From contig NZ_FOMS01000002.1 in assembly GCF_900112685.1 (NCBI RefSeq), positions 1 through 64,000 of the forward strand: a stretch of 64,000 nucleotides of DNA. Direction: 5' to 3'. This DNA comes from Roseivivax sediminis (GTDB lineage Bacteria > Pseudomonadota > Alphaproteobacteria > Rhodobacterales > Rhodobacteraceae). The stretch's first letter is position 1. Each line of letters begins with the position of its first letter. The notes beneath the pieces were generated by a model that had not been told where the DNA came from, did not search any database, and saw only the letters and a list, made by a program, of their open reading frames with translations. A program made the translations under genes and the position numbers. Shown here in pieces: positions 4,762-13,973 of this stretch.

Positions 4762-5307
4762 TCAGGGCTCCCCCGCCATCGGCTCGATCACTTCGAGCGG
4801 ATAATCCCAGAGCGCCCAGCCGTCGGTGCCCTCGGGCAGCCAGTAAACCTCGCTGTAACCGTATTCGAGCGCGCGTTTGGCGGCGTTCCAGGACATCCAG
4901 CAAGCCTCCAGACAGAAGAACAGGACCGGGTGATCCTTGTCGCCCCCCGTCGCCACATCGAGCCCGGCGCGGAAGTAATCGGCCGTCTCTTCCGCGATGG
5001 CGCCGTAGCCGACATTCGGAAGCCAGGTCGCGCCGGGGACGGACTGTCGGGGCGTGTCGCGCCAGATCGTGCCCTCGGGCAGGTTCTTCGGCTTCGGGGC
5101 GCGGGGCAAGACGTCGATGAACGCCGTCTCTCCCGCCTTCCAGAGCTCGTGCGCGCCTTCCGGTCCGACCACGCGCGCGCCGTCCAGCGTTGCCGGAACC
5201 GGGGCGCGGTAGTCATCCATCCGGTAGCCGGCCGGCTCCTCGGCCGCCTGGGCAAGCGCGAAGGCCGGCAGCGCTGCAATTAGCAGCGCCGCCGGCCAGC
5301 GCATCAT
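4762..5307 (-). CDS. PQQ-dependent catabolism-associated CXXCW-motif protein
   Basis: A 181-aa exported protein with a rhodanese-like core. The signal peptide is MMRWPAALLIAALPAFALA. The signature is CLEACWMSWNAAKRA (about residues 137-151), a Cys-x3-Cys-Trp form of the CXXCW motif, preceded by VLFF. Two adjacent ATG codons are possible; I chose the first because GAGG is seven bases upstream, and its ATGA overlaps the stop of xoxJ. It ends the frmA-to-xoxJ run of minus-strand genes. It may exchange sulfur or disulfide groups with the SoxYZ-like carriers; that is inference. Confidence 0.8.
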   Translation of the reverse strand: MMRWPAALLIAALPAFALAQAAEEPAGYRMDDYRAPVPATLDGARVVGPEGAHELWKAGETAFIDVLPRAPKPKNLPEGTIWRDTPRQSVPGATWLPNVGYGAIAEETADYFRAGLDVATGGDKDHPVLFFCLEACWMSWNAAKRALEYGYSEVYWLPEGTDGWALWDYPLEVIEPMAGEP

Positions 5308-6146
5308 TGCGAGACCTCGACGATCTCCGTCCCCATGTCGTTGACCAGCGGCACGCCCGCTTCGGACAGGATGGCGTTGATCTCGTCCTGGTGGCGGCGG
5401 ATCAGCGAATTCAGCTCGCGTTTCCACACCTCCTCGCCACGGCGCACACCCATCGTGATCCGGAAGAACAGCCGCGGCGGGCCGTCCTCCGCGATCAACG
5501 GCACGACTTTCATGTCGGGATGCTCGTCTTTCACCAGCGGCCCGCCGATCGGCCCCCAGAGCACCGCGGCGTCGAGCTCTCCTGCATCGAGATCGGCCAG
5601 CATGTCCTGCGCAGGGCTTTCGTAACGGCGGTCGACGAAGAGCCTGTAGGCCTCCGCGTCACCCATCAGGCCGTTGCGCGCCATGTGATTTCCCGGCGGA
5701 GAGCCCGCGATGACGCCGATCCGCTTGCCCTCGAGTGCGGGGTCGGACAGTGCCGTGACCTCCGACAGCTCCCCGTCTTCGGGGACGATAAGGGTGTAGA
5801 CCGACGTGAAGTAGTGGTTGGTGTTCTGCACCAGCTCGTGGCCCTGGGCGTAACCGATCACCACGTCGCAGCGGTTCGCCGCCAGCGTGTTGCGGATGAA
5901 GCCGGTGGCCATCGGGAACCATTCGTAGGTGAGCGGGCGATCCAGCTTCTCCGCCAACAGCGCCGCGATCTTGTTCTCGAAACCCTCCCCGGCTTCGTTC
6001 GACATCGGATAGTTGGCCGGATCGGCGCAAACCCTGAACGCGTTCTGGGACACGAGATCAGAGGTTTGCGCCGTGACCGGCCCTGCCTGGGAGGCCAGCA
6101 GGGCCAGTACGAGAAGTCCGGAAGGCTTAGCCGCCCATGCAGGCAT
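5304..6146 (-). CDS. xoxJ: XoxJ/MxaJ-like periplasmic binding protein of methanol dehydrogenase
   Basis: A 280-aa exported protein of the MxaJ/XoxJ family, which has a solute-binding-protein (type 2) fold and is thought to help mature or activate PQQ methanol dehydrogenase. Visible: signal segment SGLLVLALLASQAGPVTA, then FRVCADPANYPMSNEAGEGF at the start of lobe 1, GKRIGVIAGSPPGNHMARNG in the middle and DAAVLWGPIGGPLVK in lobe 2. Its first 20 bp overlap the end of xoxG, so translation is likely coupled. The order xoxF-xoxG-xoxJ is the standard lanthanide methanol dehydrogenase arrangement. Confidence 0.88.
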   Translation of the reverse strand: MPAWAAKPSGLLVLALLASQAGPVTAQTSDLVSQNAFRVCADPANYPMSNEAGEGFENKIAALLAEKLDRPLTYEWFPMATGFIRNTLAANRCDVVIGYAQGHELVQNTNHYFTSVYTLIVPEDGELSEVTALSDPALEGKRIGVIAGSPPGNHMARNGLMGDAEAYRLFVDRRYESPAQDMLADLDAGELDAAVLWGPIGGPLVKDEHPDMKVVPLIAEDGPPRLFFRITMGVRRGEEVWKRELNSLIRRHQDEINAILSEAGVPLVNDMGTEIVEVSQ

Positions 6147-7068
6147 TTTCCATCTCTCGAATCATGTCGGATTTCGGTTCCTTGTTGGCCGGACGGCCAC
6201 GCGCGACTTCCCCGGCACCACGTGCCTTGAGGTAGACGTAGATATCGTCAAGGTAGCACATGACGTTGGCGTTGTCGCCGAACGACGGCATGACGGAATT
6301 GCCGTTCTTGCGGCCGTTCACCACGACGTCGTAGAAGTCGTAGTAATCCATGTTCACGGCGGAATTCTTGATCGCCGGCGCGTAGGTCGAGCCTTCGCCG
6401 TCCGGGCCGTGGCAGACATGGCATTCGGAATGATAGCGGCGGAAGCCGGAATAGGTCAGCCAGTCGATCGTGCCGTCCTCGGCCACGTGAAAGGTCGGAA
6501 TGTCGTCCTCGGTGTAGTAGCGGCCGCCGTCCTCGTAGGCGACGACGATGTTCGGATCGCCCTGGACGTCGGCCTCGGTGACTTCGGCGTCCGAATTCTC
6601 GGCCGAGGCTTCGTCCGCGCCACCCTCGGGGTCTGAGTCCGGATCCGCATCTGGTTCGGACATGCTGTTCTCGCCCTCGCCATCACCCTCGGGCGTCGGC
6701 GCGGTTTCCGCACCGCCGGTCACAGCGCCGCCGGTCTCGGCATTCTCGCCGGTCTCTTCGGCCGTGCTGCCGCCTTCCGGCGTCTCTTCGGGGGCGCCGC
6801 CGTCACCTTCGGTGTCTGGGCCGGTCATCGTGGTGGTGCCCTCGCCGCCGTCGGCGGGCTCCACCGGCGCGGTGGCCGCGCCCTCCACCGGCTGATCCTC
6901 GGAGGTCGAGGTGTCCGGCAGGCTCATGTCGCAGCCGGGCTCGGTGTCGAAATCTTCGGGGCAGTCGGGTTCTTCCGAGCCGTCCTGGGCCCAGGCGCTG
7001 GCGCCCAGCGAAACCGTCAGGGCGGCCGCGGCTATCAGGGTGAAACCGTACCGGGTCGTCGCGTGCAT
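6127..7068 (-). CDS. xoxG: c-type cytochrome, electron acceptor of XoxF, with long acidic linker
   Basis: A 313-aa periplasmic cytochrome c of the cL/c-553i type that takes electrons from XoxF. Residues 1-28 are a signal peptide. The haem motif is CHVCH at 216-220, and Met260 (SVMPSFG) is the likely distal ligand. Other Cys at 36, 46, 271 and 310 could form disulfides. Between about 30 and 170 lies a low-complexity stretch rich in Glu, Asp, Gly, Pro and Thr, roughly 140 residues that are not part of the cytochrome fold. The ATG has AAAGGA eight bases upstream. It sits 84 bp after xoxF, separated by a strong hairpin. Confidence 0.9.
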   Translation of the reverse strand: MHATTRYGFTLIAAAALTVSLGASAWAQDGSEEPDCPEDFDTEPGCDMSLPDTSTSEDQPVEGAATAPVEPADGGEGTTTMTGPDTEGDGGAPEETPEGGSTAEETGENAETGGAVTGGAETAPTPEGDGEGENSMSEPDADPDSDPEGGADEASAENSDAEVTEADVQGDPNIVVAYEDGGRYYTEDDIPTFHVAEDGTIDWLTYSGFRRYHSECHVCHGPDGEGSTYAPAIKNSAVNMDYYDFYDVVVNGRKNGNSVMPSFGDNANVMCYLDDIYVYLKARGAGEVARGRPANKEPKSDMIREMENACMGG

Positions 7069-7152: not shown

Positions 7153-8955
7153 TCAGTCCGGCAGTGCGAAGACGGTCAGTTGCCCGCCGAGCGCGGTGTA
7201 GTCGCTCAGCGCCGAGTAGCCGCCCACGGCGCCGAGGCCGTCGTTGGGGTTGGTCAGACCGGCCGCGAGACCGATGCCGGCCCAGCCGCCGACGCCCGAC
7301 AGGATGCCCACGTACTGCTTGTCGTCGTGGGTGTAGGTCATCACGTTGCCGATGATGCCCGACGGAGTCTTGAAACGGTAGAGTTCGTCACCCGTCTCGG
7401 CGTCCACGGCCTTCAGGTAGCCCTCGAGCGTGCCGTAGAAGACGATATCCCCTGCCGTGGCCAGAGCGCCCGACCAGACCGAGAACTGCTCCGGGATGGA
7501 CCACTTGATCTCGCCGTTGATGTTGTCCCAGGCGATGAAGTTACCCATGCCGCCGTGGCTGTCCGGCGCGGGATACATCGACAGGGTCGCACCCACGTAG
7601 GGCTGACCGGCCGTGTAGCTCACCCGGAACGGCTCGTAGTCCATGCAGACGTGGTTCGTCGGCACGTAGAACGTTTCCGTCTTGGGCGAGTAGGACGCCG
7701 GCTGCTGGTCCTTGGTGCCGAGCGCGGCCGGGCAGATGCCGGTCGAGTTCACGTCCTCGCCGTTCTGCTCGGTCGAGTACTGCGCCACCACTTCGGGACG
7801 GCCGTAGGTGTCGGATTCGGGGTCCATGTCGACACCCGTGGTCCAGTTCACCACCGGATCGAACTTCTCGGCCAGGAGGAGTTCACCCGAGACGCGGTCC
7901 ATCGTGTAGGCGAGACCGTTCCGGTCGAAGTGGGTCAGAAGCTTGCGCTCTTCGCCTTCCCACTCCTGCTCGGTCAGGATCATCTCGTTGACGCCGTCGT
8001 AGTCCCACTCGTCGTGCGGGGTCATCTGGTAGACCCACTTGGCCTCGCCGGTGTCGATGTCGCGGGCGAAAACGGTCATCGACCACTTGTTGTCACCCGG
8101 GCGCTGCGCCGGGTTCCAGGTCGAGGGGTTGCCCGAGCCGTAATAGAAGAGGTTCTCCTCCATGTCGGCCGCGTACCAGCCCCAGGTGGTGCCGCCGCCG
8201 ATCTTCCACTGGTCGCCTTCCCACGAGTTGAGCGAGCTGTCGGCGCCCACGGGCTCTCCGTGCTCCATGGTGTTCTCGGGGTCGAAGAGGATCTGATCGT
8301 CCGGGCCCACCGAATAGGCGCGCCATTCCTGCTCGCCGCTCTCGATGTTGTAGGCGGTGACGTGCCCCTGCACACCGAATTCGCCGCCCGAGATGCCGAC
8401 GATGATCTTGTCCTTGACCGGCAGCACCGTCGCGGTGTTGGTCTCGCCGACCGACGGATCGCCGTTCACCTGCTCCCACGCAACCTCGCCGGTTTCGGCA
8501 TCGAGCGCGACGACCTTGGTGTCGGCCTGGTGCAGGAAGACCTTGCCGTCGGCATAGGCGACCCCGCGGTTGACGGTGTCACAGCACATCACCGGAATGA
8601 CGTCCGGATCCTGCTGCGGCTCGTACTTCCACTTGATCCGGCCCTCGTTCGCGAGGTCGAGCGCGTAGACGATGTTCGGGAACGGCGTGTGCACGAACAT
8701 CGTGTCGCCGACCACCAGCGGGGAGCCTTCATGCCCGCGCAGAACGCCGGTCGAGAAGGTCCACGCCACCTGCAGATCGCCGACGTTCTCGGCGTTGATC
8801 TGGTCGAGCTCGGAATAGCGCTGGTTCTTGTAGTCCCCGGTCTGGATGGCCCACTGGTTCGGGTCATCCATCAGGTTGATGAGATCGTCGTTGGCGACCG
8901 CCATCGAGGCGGTGGCGAGCGCGATCCCGGATGTCAAAAGCGTGAGCTTTTTCAT
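7153..8955 (-). CDS. xoxF: lanthanide-dependent PQQ methanol dehydrogenase XoxF
   Basis: A 600-aa periplasmic quinoprotein that oxidizes methanol (and perhaps formaldehyde), passing electrons to XoxG. The ATG is preceded by GGGAG; signal peptide [21 protein letters not shown]. Adjacent cysteines Cys124-Cys125 (PVMCCDT) form the disulfide over PQQ. The metal site is visible: Glu192 (GGEFG), Asn276 (SGNPSTWN), catalytic Asp318 and Asp320 in HDEWDYDG. Asp two residues after the catalytic Asp separates XoxF (lanthanide) from MxaF (calcium, Ala there). Conserved WGWYAADM precedes the Asn. It is probably a XoxF5-type enzyme, as in other Rhodobacterales (inference). No mxaF or mxaI is present in the window. 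Confidence 0.96.
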
Positions 8956-9059
8956 TTCCAACTCCCTTGTTGACGTTCTTCGTCCTTGATGCGGAGCGCC
9001 GATGCGGGGAGTGCTCCCGCGCCGCCGCGTCCGTTGGTCCGGCGCTTGCCGGAGCGCAT
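8952..9059 (-). CDS. possible leader ORF upstream of xoxF (doubtful)
   Basis: A 35-codon frame starting [20 protein letters not shown] whose TGA overlaps the xoxF ATG (ATGA). A GGAGGAGA stretch lies 9 bases before its ATG. The peptide is basic and has no recognizable domain. It may be chance in GC-rich DNA, or a short upstream ORF translationally coupled to xoxF. Low confidence. Confidence 0.2.
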
Positions 9060-9262
9060 CGTGGGTCTCTCCTCCCTTGCGCCCTGGCGGTGCGGACATG
9101 CCGCGCTCTTACGTCCCTCCTTGATCTCCGGTCCCGAGGCGCGCACGTTTCGCGGCGAATCTCGCGCGGCCCCTGTCTTGTTCGGCGCTGCGGTGCGCGC
9201 CGCGGCGGTGGAATCGGGCGCGACGCGCGCTGTCGCGGTATCTGCCGCCCTCTTCCATCGAC
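8956..9262. promoter_or_regulatory. xoxF upstream region
   Basis: About 300 bp between the fghA stop and the xoxF start, expected to hold the xoxF promoter and regulator sites. I found no convincing -35/-10 pair, clear inverted-repeat operator or T-tailed terminator. The only structure noted is the short frame at 8952-9059 that abuts xoxF. Confidence 0.4.
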
Positions 9263-10087
9263 TCAGTGCAACCTCTCTGCGTGCCACACCACGTGATCAC
9301 GGGCGAAGCTGCTCACGAAACGTAGCGAATGGTCGTATCCCTTCTGCACCCGGAACGTGCCGGGCTGCCGGCGCTTGGCCATCATCGTCGCGAAGGCCTC
9401 CGGACGCAGGAGGTCGAGGTACTGATCTTCCGCGCCCTGATCGACCAGGATGTCCGTCTTCCAGCCCAGATCGTCCAGAAGCAGCGTCGAATCGTGCTCC
9501 GACCAGGCTGTCTCGTCATCGCCGAGATAGGCCGAGAGCTGCTTGCGCCCCCATTCCGAACAGGTCGGGTTGGCGATCGGCGCGAAGGCCGACAGGGACG
9601 AGAACATCTCCGAATTGCGCAGCGCCATGGTCAGCGCCCCGTGCCCGCCCATGGCGTGACCGGTGATGCCGTGCCGGTCCTCGACCGGCAGATGATCGAG
9701 CACCAGGTCGCGGAGCTCGTTCAGGATGTAGTCGTACATCCGGTAGTGGGTCCGCCACGGATCTCGCGTGGCGTTGAGGTAGAACCCCGCGCCCTGGCCG
9801 AGATCCGCATCCGCGTCATCGGCGACCGTATCGCCCCGCGGCGAAGTGTCTGGAAAGACGACGGCCAGTCCGTGTTCGGCCGCGTGCTTCTGGAACCCAC
9901 CGGCTTCGACCGCCGCCTCGGGCGTGCCGCTCAGGCCGGACAGGTACCACAGGACCGGCACCGGACCGTCCGCAGCCTGGGGCGGCAGGTAGGCCGCGAA
10001 GGTCATCTCGCAGCCGCAGGTGTTCGAGGGGTGGCGGTAGACCGTCTGGATCCCCCCGAAGCTGCGGTTCTGCGAGACGATGTCCAT
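9263..10087 (-). CDS. fghA: S-formylglutathione hydrolase family protein lacking the catalytic serine
   Basis: A 274-aa esterase-D/FGH family alpha/beta hydrolase. In the pathway it would cleave S-formylglutathione to formate and glutathione. Family marks are WYLSGLSGT, FPDTSPRG, HYRMYDYILNEL, SAFAPIANP, VDQGAEDQYL and GYDHS. The nucleophile elbow reads GHAMGGHG: residue 145 is Ala (codon GCC) where active enzymes have GHSMGGHG. The other two likely triad residues, Asp221 and His253, are kept. It starts 12 bp after frmA and should be cotranscribed. As encoded the enzyme should be inactive or have another role; sequencing error is the main alternative. Confidence 0.85.
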   Translation of the reverse strand: MDIVSQNRSFGGIQTVYRHPSNTCGCEMTFAAYLPPQAADGPVPVLWYLSGLSGTPEAAVEAGGFQKHAAEHGLAVVFPDTSPRGDTVADDADADLGQGAGFYLNATRDPWRTHYRMYDYILNELRDLVLDHLPVEDRHGITGHAMGGHGALTMALRNSEMFSSLSAFAPIANPTCSEWGRKQLSAYLGDDETAWSEHDSTLLLDDLGWKTDILVDQGAEDQYLDLLRPEAFATMMAKRRQPGTFRVQKGYDHSLRFVSSFARDHVVWHAERLH

Positions 10088-10099
10088 TTCCCATGTCCC

Positions 10100-11212
10100 T
10101 CAGAAGGTGACGACGGCGCGGATGGACTTGCCCTCGTGCATGAGGTCGAAGCCGTGGTTGATCTCGTCGAGGGTGAGGGTGTGGGTGATCATCGGGTCGA
10201 TCTCGATCTTGCCCTGCATGTACCAGTCGACGATCTTCGGCACGTCCGTCCGGCCCTTGGCGCCGCCGAAGGCCGTGCCCTTCCAGACCCGCCCGGTGAC
10301 GAGCTGGAACGGCCGGGTGGAGATCTCCGCCCCCGCCGGCGCGACGCCGATGATGATCGATTCGCCCCAGCCCTTGTGCGCCGATTCCAGCGCCGTGCGC
10401 ATCACGCCCACGTTGCCCGTGGCGTCGAACGTGTAGTCGCCGCCGCCGCCGGTCAGTTCGACCAGATGCGCCACGAGATCGCCTTCAACCTCTTTCGGAT
10501 TGACGAAATCGGTCATCCCGAAGCGCGTCGCCATCTCTTTCTTGTCGGGGTTGAGGTCGACGCCGACGATCTGGTCCGCGCCAGCGAGCCGCAGGCCCTG
10601 GATCACGTTCAGACCGATCCCGCCGAGGCCGAAGACGATCGCCCGGCAGCCGATCTCGGCCTTGGCGGTGTTGATCACCGCGCCGATGCCGGTGGTCACG
10701 CCGCAGCCGATATAGCAGATTTTATCGAACGGAGCGTCCTTGTTAACCTTTGCCAGCGCAATCTCCGGCAGGACCGTGTGATTGGCGAAGGTGGAACAGC
10801 CCATGTAGTGATGCAGCACCGTGCCGTCGTCGAGGCTGAAGCGCGACGTGCCGTCGGGCATCAGGCCCTTGCCCTGCGTGCCCCGGATCGCCTGGCAGAG
10901 GTTGGTCTTGCCCGAGAGGCAATATTCGCATTCCCGGCATTCGGGGGTGTAGAGCGGGATGACATGGTCGCCCGGCTCTACGCTGGTGACGCCCTCGCCG
11001 CATTCCACCACGACGCCGGCGCCCTCGTGCCCGAGAATGCTCGGGAACAGACCCTCGGGGTCAGCGCCCGAGCGGGTGAATTCATCGGTATGGCACAGCC
11101 CCGTCGCCTTGATCTCCACCAGAACCTCGCCCGCCTTCGGGCCCTCCAGGTTCACGTCCATGATCTCCAGCGGCTTGCCCGCTTCCATCGCCACCGCAGC
11201 ACGCGTTTTCAT
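10100..11212 (-). CDS. frmA: S-(hydroxymethyl)glutathione dehydrogenase (class III alcohol dehydrogenase)
   Basis: A 370-aa zinc alcohol dehydrogenase (also called adhI or flhA in relatives) that oxidizes the formaldehyde-glutathione adduct to S-formylglutathione with NAD+. Catalytic zinc ligands Cys40 (ATGLCHTD) and His62 (GHEGAG), structural zinc cysteines 92, 95, 98 and 106 ([16 protein letters not shown]), and the Rossmann motif [12 protein letters not shown] are visible. The length fits the family. AAGGAG lies seven bases before the ATG. It is first of the frmA-fghA pair upstream of xoxF and handles the formaldehyde made in the periplasm. Confidence 0.95.
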
Positions 11213-11993: not shown

Positions 11994-13037
11994 TCACTCC
12001 CATTCGAGTTCTGTGAAGGCGACCGTCGCGTTGCGCGGGTTGTAGGCGTCGAAAAGCGCCCAGCTGCCGGCCTCTTCCTGCGCGATGTGCGTCACCGCCT
12101 CGCCCAGCCGTTCGCCCGCGTCGATGGCCGCGCGCGTGTCGGCGGCGAGCGTGTCGAGGTACCGGCCGAGCGGCGCTGCCCCGTCAGGCCAGTCGAGCAC
12201 CGGACCGCCATGGCCGGGCACGACCCGTACCGCGTCCTGCCGCGAGAGCTCCGCCAGCACCTCCTGCCAACCGCGCAGCGAGCCGTCGAGCGCCGGAACA
12301 TGGTCGTCGAAGACGAGGTCCCCGGCGATGAGCGTGCGTGTCATGGGATCGAAGACCGAAAGATCGGTTTCGGTATGGGCCAGCGGCCAGGCTTTCAGTG
12401 CCAGTGCCCGCCCGCCGAGGTCGATCTCGCCCCCCTCCGCGATCGTCCGGTCGACCTCGACGATCCGGGAGCCGATGAAGGCGCCGGGGCCGATCAGCTC
12501 CGCAAAGCTTTCGCCATAGTTCGCCGCGCGGTCCGACAGAGCGCGGGGCAGCTTGGCATGGCCGACGATCTCGGCCCCGGCCTCCGCGAAGACGGAGGCA
12601 CCGAAGACGTGGTCGGGGTGCATGTGGGTGAGGATCGCATGGCTCAGCGGCTTGTCCGTGCGCGCCCGGATCGCGCGCCACGTCGCCTCGCCCACGGCGC
12701 GGGAGCCGCCGCTGTCGATCACGGCGACGCTGTCCTCCCCGATGACGAATGCGATGTTGGACACGTCCCCAAGGTTCGCCGCGTCCGGCTCTGCCACCGT
12801 GCCGCGATGCACGAAGAGGCCGGGCGCCACCTGTGTCACGTCGAGCGCCGGACCGGCCGGGGCACAGGACGGGGCGCCGCGCGCCACGAGCGGGTCGAAC
12901 AGGCCGGGATCGGGCGGGCGCGCGGCGAGCGCCTCGGCGCAGGCGGCCCGCGTCTCCGCCTCGTAGCCGGGCAGGAGCGTTGGTCTGCAGACCTCGGCCG
13001 ACAGGGTCAGGCACAGCGTCAGGGCGGCTTCGAACAT
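11994..13037 (-). CDS. quinoprotein relay system zinc metallohydrolase (SoxH-related)
   Basis: A 347-aa exported metallo-beta-lactamase-fold protein of the SoxH-related family found with SoxYZ-like carriers near PQQ dehydrogenases. I chose the ATG that gives MFEAALTLCLTLSAEVC because AAGGAG lies five bases upstream. The zinc motif HMHPDH is at 138-143, followed by a LAHTETD histidine, AGDLVFDDH and VVPGHG, so both metal sites look complete. The N-terminal 60 residues hold four cysteines, unusual for the lactamase fold. It is divergent from SoxYZ copy 2 and may release a group carried on that protein's Cys (inference). Confidence 0.85.
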   Translation of the reverse strand: MFEAALTLCLTLSAEVCRPTLLPGYEAETRAACAEALAARPPDPGLFDPLVARGAPSCAPAGPALDVTQVAPGLFVHRGTVAEPDAANLGDVSNIAFVIGEDSVAVIDSGGSRAVGEATWRAIRARTDKPLSHAILTHMHPDHVFGASVFAEAGAEIVGHAKLPRALSDRAANYGESFAELIGPGAFIGSRIVEVDRTIAEGGEIDLGGRALALKAWPLAHTETDLSVFDPMTRTLIAGDLVFDDHVPALDGSLRGWQEVLAELSRQDAVRVVPGHGGPVLDWPDGAAPLGRYLDTLAADTRAAIDAGERLGEAVTHIAQEEAGSWALFDAYNPRNATVAFTELEWE

Positions 13038-13166
13038 CGGCGCTCCTTTCACGGTCAGGGTCGCGCGCGCACGGGGCCGTGATCCAGTCCGACGAAGGGC
13101 GCAATGGGCGCAGGCGCGGTTTTATGTCATGCTAGTAATCATCCATGCCATTCGAGGAGGAGGAGC

Positions 13167-13973
13167 GTGACCCGACTGACCGCTTGCGCCGCCGCGCTGA
13201 CCGCGCTTCTGGCCGCACCCGCCGTCGCAGAGGAGGTTCGCAACCCGCTCACCGACAGCGCCGCCTGGGAGGATCTGCGCTACGACGTGGTGGGCGATGC
13301 CGCGCTCGCCGACGGCGCTGACTTGTTTACCGTGGACGCGCCCTACCGGGCTCACGATGCCGCGACGGTCCCGATCGCGATCACCCAGACCGACCCGGAC
13401 ACGCCGATCAATGCGGCGACCGTGGTGATCGACGAGAACCCCGCCCCGGTCGCCGCGAACTTCGAATTCGGCGCCGCGATGGCCCCGCTGGATTTCGAGC
13501 TGCGGGTGCGGGTGAACCAGTATTCCAACGTGCGCGTGATCGCCGAGACGCCCGAAGGACTGGCCATGGGGGGGCGCTTCGTGAAGGCGTCGGGCGGATG
13601 TTCGGCGCCGGCCTCGCGTGATCCGGAAGTGGCGCTCGCCTCCATGGGGCAGATGAAGCTGCGCCAGTTCGACACGCCGGCGATGTCGACCGCCCGGCGC
13701 GAGGCGCAGATCATGATCAGGCACCCGAACTATTCGGGGCTTCAGCGCGACCAGATAACGCAGCTCTTCATCCCGGCGCATTTCATCGACGAAATGGAAG
13801 TCTGGCAGGGTGATGAGAAGCTCTTTTCGATGACCGGCGGCATCTCGATCAGCGAGAACCCGGTCTTCCGCTTCTCCTATGCCGACAACGGGTCGACGGA
13901 TCTGCGGGTGCGGGCGACGGACACCGAGGGCAACGTCTTCGAGCGCAAGTTGCCGAAGGATGCACAAGGATAA
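13167..13973 (+). CDS. quinoprotein dehydrogenase-associated SoxYZ-like carrier (copy 2)
   Basis: A 268-aa exported SoxY-SoxZ fusion. The GTG start (VTRLTACAAALTALLAAPAVA) is chosen because a purine-rich GAGGAGGAGGAGC immediately precedes it. The carrier Cys is C145 in ASGGCSAPAS, close to the GGCGG arm of SoxY; the SoxZ-like half has RHPNYSGLQRDQ and LFIPAHFIDEM. It resembles copy 1 at 3949-4758 along the whole length, yet the Cys context differs (GGC here, GAC there). It is divergent from the zinc hydrolase gene. Confidence 0.85.
   Translation: MTRLTACAAALTALLAAPAVAEEVRNPLTDSAAWEDLRYDVVGDAALADGADLFTVDAPYRAHDAATVPIAITQTDPDTPINAATVVIDENPAPVAANFEFGAAMAPLDFELRVRVNQYSNVRVIAETPEGLAMGGRFVKASGGCSAPASRDPEVALASMGQMKLRQFDTPAMSTARREAQIMIRHPNYSGLQRDQITQLFIPAHFIDEMEVWQGDEKLFSMTGGISISENPVFRFSYADNGSTDLRVRATDTEGNVFERKLPKDAQG

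Follow-up and report, generated by a model that had tools for sequence, protein, structure and literature searches.

What does a gene resembling that of S-formylglutathione hydrolase (FGH) do in a methanol/formaldehyde operon when the codon of its nucleophile serine reads alanine? The gene in question lies in the window, i.e. the whole stretch of 64,000 nucleotides of DNA from the marine bacterium Roseivivax sediminis that was analyzed, on the minus strand at positions 9263–10087 (ORF 10087 to 9263), and encodes 274 amino acids with no stops. Direct reading of the sequence confirmed the original prediction at its central point: codon 145 (9653–9655, minus strand) is GCC, giving Ala and an elbow of GHAMGGHG. 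The gene was also found intact between frmA and xoxF as described, with frmA, encoding S-(hydroxymethyl)glutathione dehydrogenase, 12 bases upstream (10100–11212, minus strand; TIGR02818, 609 bits against a cut-off of 543.95), and a gene for a PQQ-dependent alcohol dehydrogenase in the xoxF position on the other side (7153–8958, minus strand; TIGR03075, 761 bits for the ORF 7153–9099), which we take to be XoxF. The operon further contains a c-type cytochrome gene (6127–7068, minus strand; PF13442, 29 bits against a cut-off of 27) and a gene for a periplasmic substrate-binding-like protein (5304–6146, minus strand; PF00497, below the gathering score), presumably XoxJ-like, whose orthologues adjoin xoxF in three other genomes of the genus (G001, G003 and G006). 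Since gyrB is carried on the same contig (557,848 bases), the contig looks chromosomal. A gene for a fused SoxY-SoxZ protein (13104–13973) is located near the operon and adjoins a gene of the metallo-beta-lactamase fold (11994–13052); a SoxYZ gene is also found beside the operon of G006. A published pathway for a XoxF-using strain of the Roseobacter group includes FGH, and Roseivivax is not mentioned in the accessible part of that report (PMC5934484).

The protein matches the FGH family model TIGR02821 with 390.4 bits, well above the curated cut-off of 281.7, and both Asp221 (9425–9427, minus strand) and His253 (9329–9331, minus strand) of the triad are present as expected, but its nucleophile motif is GHAMGG in place of the GHSMGG of active FGH. 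Alignment of the pocket and oxyanion loop (codons 52–62; 9902–9934, minus strand) showed that Leu52 is kept and that Cys54, His56, Asn58, Met60 and Lys62 are replaced; directly after the triad His (codons 255–256; 9320–9325, minus strand), Tyr255 is changed to Leu and Tyr256, the state in the Ser-bearing L003, to Arg. Among the substrate-site residues Cys, Asn, Lys, Trp and Phe, only Trp179 is kept (C54G, N58A, K62A and F223Y). The oxyanion-hole residues Leu52 and Met146 are retained in the window protein and absent from its G006 orthologue, and His144 and Trp179 are retained in both. In order to express these changes against a background, 80 near-invariant positions were defined across 89 Ser-bearing rows (including the best 80 of 351 relatives, with the duplicate rows L017 and L051 dropped), and six of the 80 were changed in the window protein (C54G, N58A, K62A, S145A, F223Y and Y255L), compared with a median of 0 and a worst case of 4 of 82 for the background rows in a leave-one-out analysis. 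Position 62 is already Arg in L003, as it is in G006. The claim that all other family marks are kept thus did not hold, with Cys54, Asn58, Lys62, Phe223 and Tyr255 changed as well.

These positions were then placed on the Shewanella enzyme SfSFGH, with residue equivalence taken from sequence alignment. According to the accessible part of the structural report, Leu55, Cys57, Asn61 and Lys65 belong to the active site, the counterparts of Cys54, Asn58, Lys62, Phe223 and Ser145 are substrate-site, charged-site or catalytic residues, and the oxyanion hole is formed by the counterparts of Leu52 and Met146 (PMC6699074). Four of the six changed near-invariant positions would accordingly correspond to Cys57, Asn61, Lys65 and the nucleophile Ser148 of SfSFGH, and a fifth, conservative change to Phe226.

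Annotation would call this protein an active FGH on the strength of its score above the equivalog cut-off, though the mechanism of the family is impossible for it. The acyl-enzyme route of serine hydrolases needs the nucleophile Ser and is closed without Ser145, and alanine replacement of the FGH triad has reportedly been studied; in view of this established chemistry, we regard the window protein as very probably dead as an FGH.

A trivial explanation would be an error of sequencing or assembly that turned Ser into Ala, as only a single base separates codon 145 from a Ser codon (GCC versus TCC). This explanation is rejected as extremely improbable because the orthologue of this operon gene in a separate genome, that of another species of the genus (G006; L004/L098), likewise encodes Ala at position 145 (elbow GHAAGGHG) and shares two further states, Asn58 to Ala, for which all three bases are changed to an identical codon in both, and Met60 to Val. 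The replacements moreover extend to Cys54, Asn58 and Lys62 in the window protein and to Cys54 and Asn58 in G006. The G006 copy is the more eroded of the two: 14 of the 80 near-invariant positions are changed, the oxyanion hole carries Leu52Gly and Met146Ala, and there is a two-codon insertion near residue 91. At three pocket positions the two copies differ from each other (Gly in the window copy or Glu in G006 at 54, Pro or Phe at 56, Leu or Phe at 255). Neither stops nor frameshifts were found in the operon fgh of the two species. In G006 a gene for a 159-residue c-type cytochrome (L098:1087–1566) stands between the Ala-type fgh and xoxF; the corresponding gap in the window, from fgh to the likely xoxF start (8959–9262, 304 bases), is too short for that gene.

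Ala at the nucleophile was rare in every sample. GHSMGG was present in 91 of 93 FGH rows (13 from the genus plus the best 80 of 351 relatives, two of the rows being from duplicate genomes), the exceptions being the window gene and its G006 orthologue; the scan for relatives was queried with peptides of the window protein only, so that copies eroded like that of G006 could escape it. In 190 genomes of the class, the pattern GHxMGGHGA gave 51 matches, 50 with Ser and one, that of the window, with Ala; not every match was individually confirmed to be an FGH, and elbows lacking Met, such as that of G006, are missed by the pattern. In a sample of 394 genomes of the family, from which G006 is absent, GHAxGGHGA gave seven matches, of which only that of the window is an FGH and the six others are not. 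By these counts, Ala at this site of FGH is far from chance.

The possibility that a second hydrolase does this step in the genome, raised in the original prediction, was borne out by a search for a second fghA, which found an FGH gene at C2:118023–118847 whose product is 58% identical to the window protein, reads GHSMGGHG and has its pocket positions unchanged. Each of the nine genus genomes sampled contributes one FGH to the clade of this protein (support 100/99); two of these genomes have FGH proteins identical to those of Roseivivax isoporae and R. halodurans, and a core Ser-bearing FGH is present in nine of nine. Judging from its sequence, this core enzyme can carry the S-formylglutathione hydrolysis step. 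The operon FGH together with xoxF is limited to four of the nine, the PQQ alcohol dehydrogenase always standing beside the operon fgh, and a full-length operon fgh and xoxF were both not found in the other five. When the same Ala was sought in the FGHs beside xoxF, it was present in two of the four operon copies, those of the window and G006; the copies of G003 and G001 have Ser145. The G003 protein (identical to R. isoporae L017; 81% identity to the window protein) and the G001 protein (identical to R. halodurans L051; 67% identity), both encoded at the same place before xoxF, keep Ser145, Cys54, His56, Asn58 and Met60, unlike the window protein. The Ser-type copy of G001 (L005/L051) is remote from its genus mates (branch 0.35), nonetheless the xoxF of this genome groups with those of the window and G006; the operon FGH of G001 has perhaps been replaced by transfer.

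The operon frmA also has a second copy in the genome (C2:122576–123685; G000, L097), 98% identical in protein. The two genes (10100–11212 and C2:122576–123685) differ at 45 of 1113 bases, 34 of them at third positions, and their flanks are unrelated (29% identity position by position over 300 bases upstream, 28% over 199 downstream), which looks like gene conversion between the frmA copies, even though the two FGHs of this genome share only 58% identity. In 28 of 51 contigs of relatives (L017–L067, among the best 80 of 351), the contig stops within the 1200 bases upstream of the operon fgh, at about the place of frmA, which would follow if assemblies throughout the family were broken by near-identical duplicates of frmA.

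How selection after the loss can be read depends on the age of the loss: if Ser145 was lost recently in each line, part of the selection measured would predate it. In the full FGH tree the window and G006 proteins were joined with support of 100/93, and in the codon model with all codons this topology was favoured by about 9 log units. When the active-site stretches were removed, support fell to 87/13 and a grouping of the window protein with L003 was not rejected (p-AU 0.40); likewise, the codon model without active-site codons discriminated no topology (lnL −4218.0, −4219.9 and −4218.1). The xoxF trees united the window with G006 (99/97 for DNA, 100/98 for protein), whereas in the tree of the operon binding-protein gene (window 5304–6146 against L098, L099 and L100) G003 was placed with G006 (98/90); this conflict suggests recombination inside the operon. 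In the rpoB+gyrB tree, the window genome paired with G004, and G006 paired with G001, within a single clade that leaves out G003 (100/99), and recombination has probably been at work in these genomes. The data fit a scenario in which Ser145 was lost in the ancestor of the four-genome clade, G004 lost the operon and G001 carries a different, more distant copy. Loss before the split of the window and G006 lineages is thus supported, not proven, and a single ancestral event rests on the shared active-site states and the xoxF trees.

An inactive copy beside an intact core enzyme might simply be decaying. Redundant with the core FGH, it would have lost its Ser and be on the way to being lost itself, the frame being still open through the short time elapsed or the need for downstream xoxF translation. 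The redundant core FGH in the same genome, the five of nine genus genomes in which operon fgh and xoxF were not found, and the G006 copy, with both oxyanion-hole residues gone and a two-codon insertion, all agree with such a relic. Its prediction of neutral evolution was evaluated by a codon model of GY94 type (F3x4, maximum likelihood, on a fixed tree of 11 orthologues, in a custom script and not a standard package). A single omega over all branches was estimated as 0.065; freeing the three post-loss branches gave 0.080 with no real gain (LR 1.4), and fixing omega at 1 on these branches was far worse (LR 224). Neutrality was rejected on both individual tips (omega = 0.049 and 0.112, LR against neutral = 50.2 and 32.8, for the window and G006, respectively), also without active-site codons (omega = 0.061 and 0.105, LR = 30.2 and 26.7), and other topologies gave similar values (0.051–0.055 and 0.119–0.121). 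The G006 tip was slightly raised over the common omega (LR 3.6), and three control tips showed no clear shift from it (LR 0.06–1.3). Differences between the window and G006 genes at codon positions 1, 2 and 3 numbered 53, 39 and 128, respectively, the third-position excess having a p value of 4e-14. Synonymous sites are near saturation, with dS on the window branch about 1.3, and synonymous rates are therefore uncertain; this uncertainty is not enough to move omega from 0.05 to 1. Assuming that the loss predates the G006 split, neutral drift of the Ala copy is rejected by the codon models, with omega at about 0.05.

The distribution of residue changes was in line with these values. Between the window and G006 proteins, 24 of 50 loop sites around the active site differed compared with 47 of 224 elsewhere (ratio 2.29, Fisher p = 0.0003), the 50-position loop set having been picked after the changes were seen. 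The loop/elsewhere ratio was 1.72 for the window against L003 and 2.46 for G006 against L003, and only 0.35–0.90 for five pairs of active orthologues, in which 40–51 of the 224 positions elsewhere differed; outside the loops, the window–G006 pair therefore lies within the range of active enzymes. Residue counts were used here because pairwise omega in the 50 loop codons reached the length bound through saturation (window–G006 and window–L003). Release of the catalytic loops on a scaffold whose constraint has changed little is the pattern expected when a pseudoenzyme is retained for a non-catalytic role. As neutral omega is rejected on both branches and the reading frame is intact in both species, we rank a decaying relic below a kept pseudoenzyme and consider it unlikely. 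The original prediction had offered an inactive relic or a binding protein: inactivity probably stands, and of the two alternatives the selection analysis points less to a relic than to a protein retained without catalysis. The G006 copy, with its 14 of 80 departures and slightly raised omega, looks like one that is decaying further.

The constrained scaffold with kept His144, Trp179, Asp221 and His253 leaves room for a partner protein of the active FGH or of FrmA, a binder of glutathione adducts or a new dyad chemistry. Some enzymes of the alpha/beta-hydrolase fold use general-base chemistry without the nucleophile, and the Asp221-His253 dyad in a reshaped pocket might likewise run a different, non-covalent reaction. 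That these two residues, His144 and Trp179 are kept in both species while their neighbours changed would agree with this, as would a burst of amino-acid change that the codon model puts on the shared ancestral branch; the burst, in which omega lies at the upper bound, depends on a very short branch (0.056) and is only a hint. The pocket residues at 54, 56 and 255, however, differ between the two species, which is at odds with a single new active site common to both, and G006 has lost both oxyanion-hole residues. A re-tooled enzyme seems to us quite unlikely.

The fold of the window protein is predicted to be intact in a structure model, so that a catalytic residue has been lost on what is, by prediction, a kept fold. 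Model confidence in the altered loops was somewhat lower than that of a Ser orthologue (67 versus 75 for residues 51–60, 71 versus 84 for residues 81–90), which is suggestive only. The dimer of SfSFGH is built by helices alpha2, alpha3 and alpha12 and strand beta1, according to the accessible part of its report (PMC6699074). In the window model, helices 56–63 and 255–273, probably equivalent to alpha2 and alpha12, overlap changed positions, and the changes may thus extend to the dimer face.

We therefore favour a kept pseudoenzyme, dead as an FGH and retained for a non-catalytic role, with a probability of roughly two in three. An ancestor shared with the G006 lineage would have lost Ser145 together with Asn58 and Met60, as their shared states suggest, at a time when the reaction was presumably already covered by the genus-core FGH, present and intact elsewhere on the chromosome. 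The catalytic loops would afterwards have been free to change, and purifying selection on the scaffold would have continued at about the strength seen in active orthologues, as the codon models indicate given an ancestral loss. By the chemistry of the family, the protein cannot form an acyl-enzyme by the usual serine route, and the methanol/formaldehyde operon most likely retains it for a purpose other than catalysis. Candidate jobs are pairing with the active FGH or FrmA, the changed positions in the probable dimer helices counting against a dimer partner, and binding of a glutathione adduct via the kept His144/Trp179/Asp221/His253 pocket. More speculatively, and with the odds well against it, the genus might have recruited the FGH scaffold to control C1 flux without catalysis: encoded in a single operon with FrmA and the methanol dehydrogenase of lanthanide type, the protein would capture a glutathione-bound C1 intermediate or pair with the core FGH and thereby sense or gate formaldehyde oxidation; if so, no earlier regulatory pseudoenzyme of the pathway would be on record in the literature searched. 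Reconstructions of the pathway would be in error wherever they assign the hydrolase step to the operon copy. Sister species have operon copies that bear Ser, and the cell itself has an intact paralogue, which makes this a clean natural case in which one can ask what the scaffold of a metabolic enzyme is kept for after catalysis ends.

In the literature searched, which omits most subscription journals, neither an FGH pseudoenzyme nor, judging by titles and the openings of abstracts, a Ser-less FGH was found, nor was any paper on FGH in Roseivivax or, by title and among the matches listed, on the structure of MPT51. Pseudoenzymes of the alpha/beta-hydrolase fold are in themselves a known kind. 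MPT51/FbpC1 of Mycobacterium tuberculosis, of the antigen 85 fold group, belongs to the same fold group as the window protein, but is distant from it (16% identity), secreted and part of an unrelated pathway. Compared with FGH/esterase D (TIGR02821; PDB 3i6y, 6jzl, 8ilj, 3e4d and 3fcx), the window protein has Ala for Ser at the nucleophile, the Cys, Asn and Lys of the pocket replaced, Tyr for Phe, and Leu for the Tyr that follows His-Ser.
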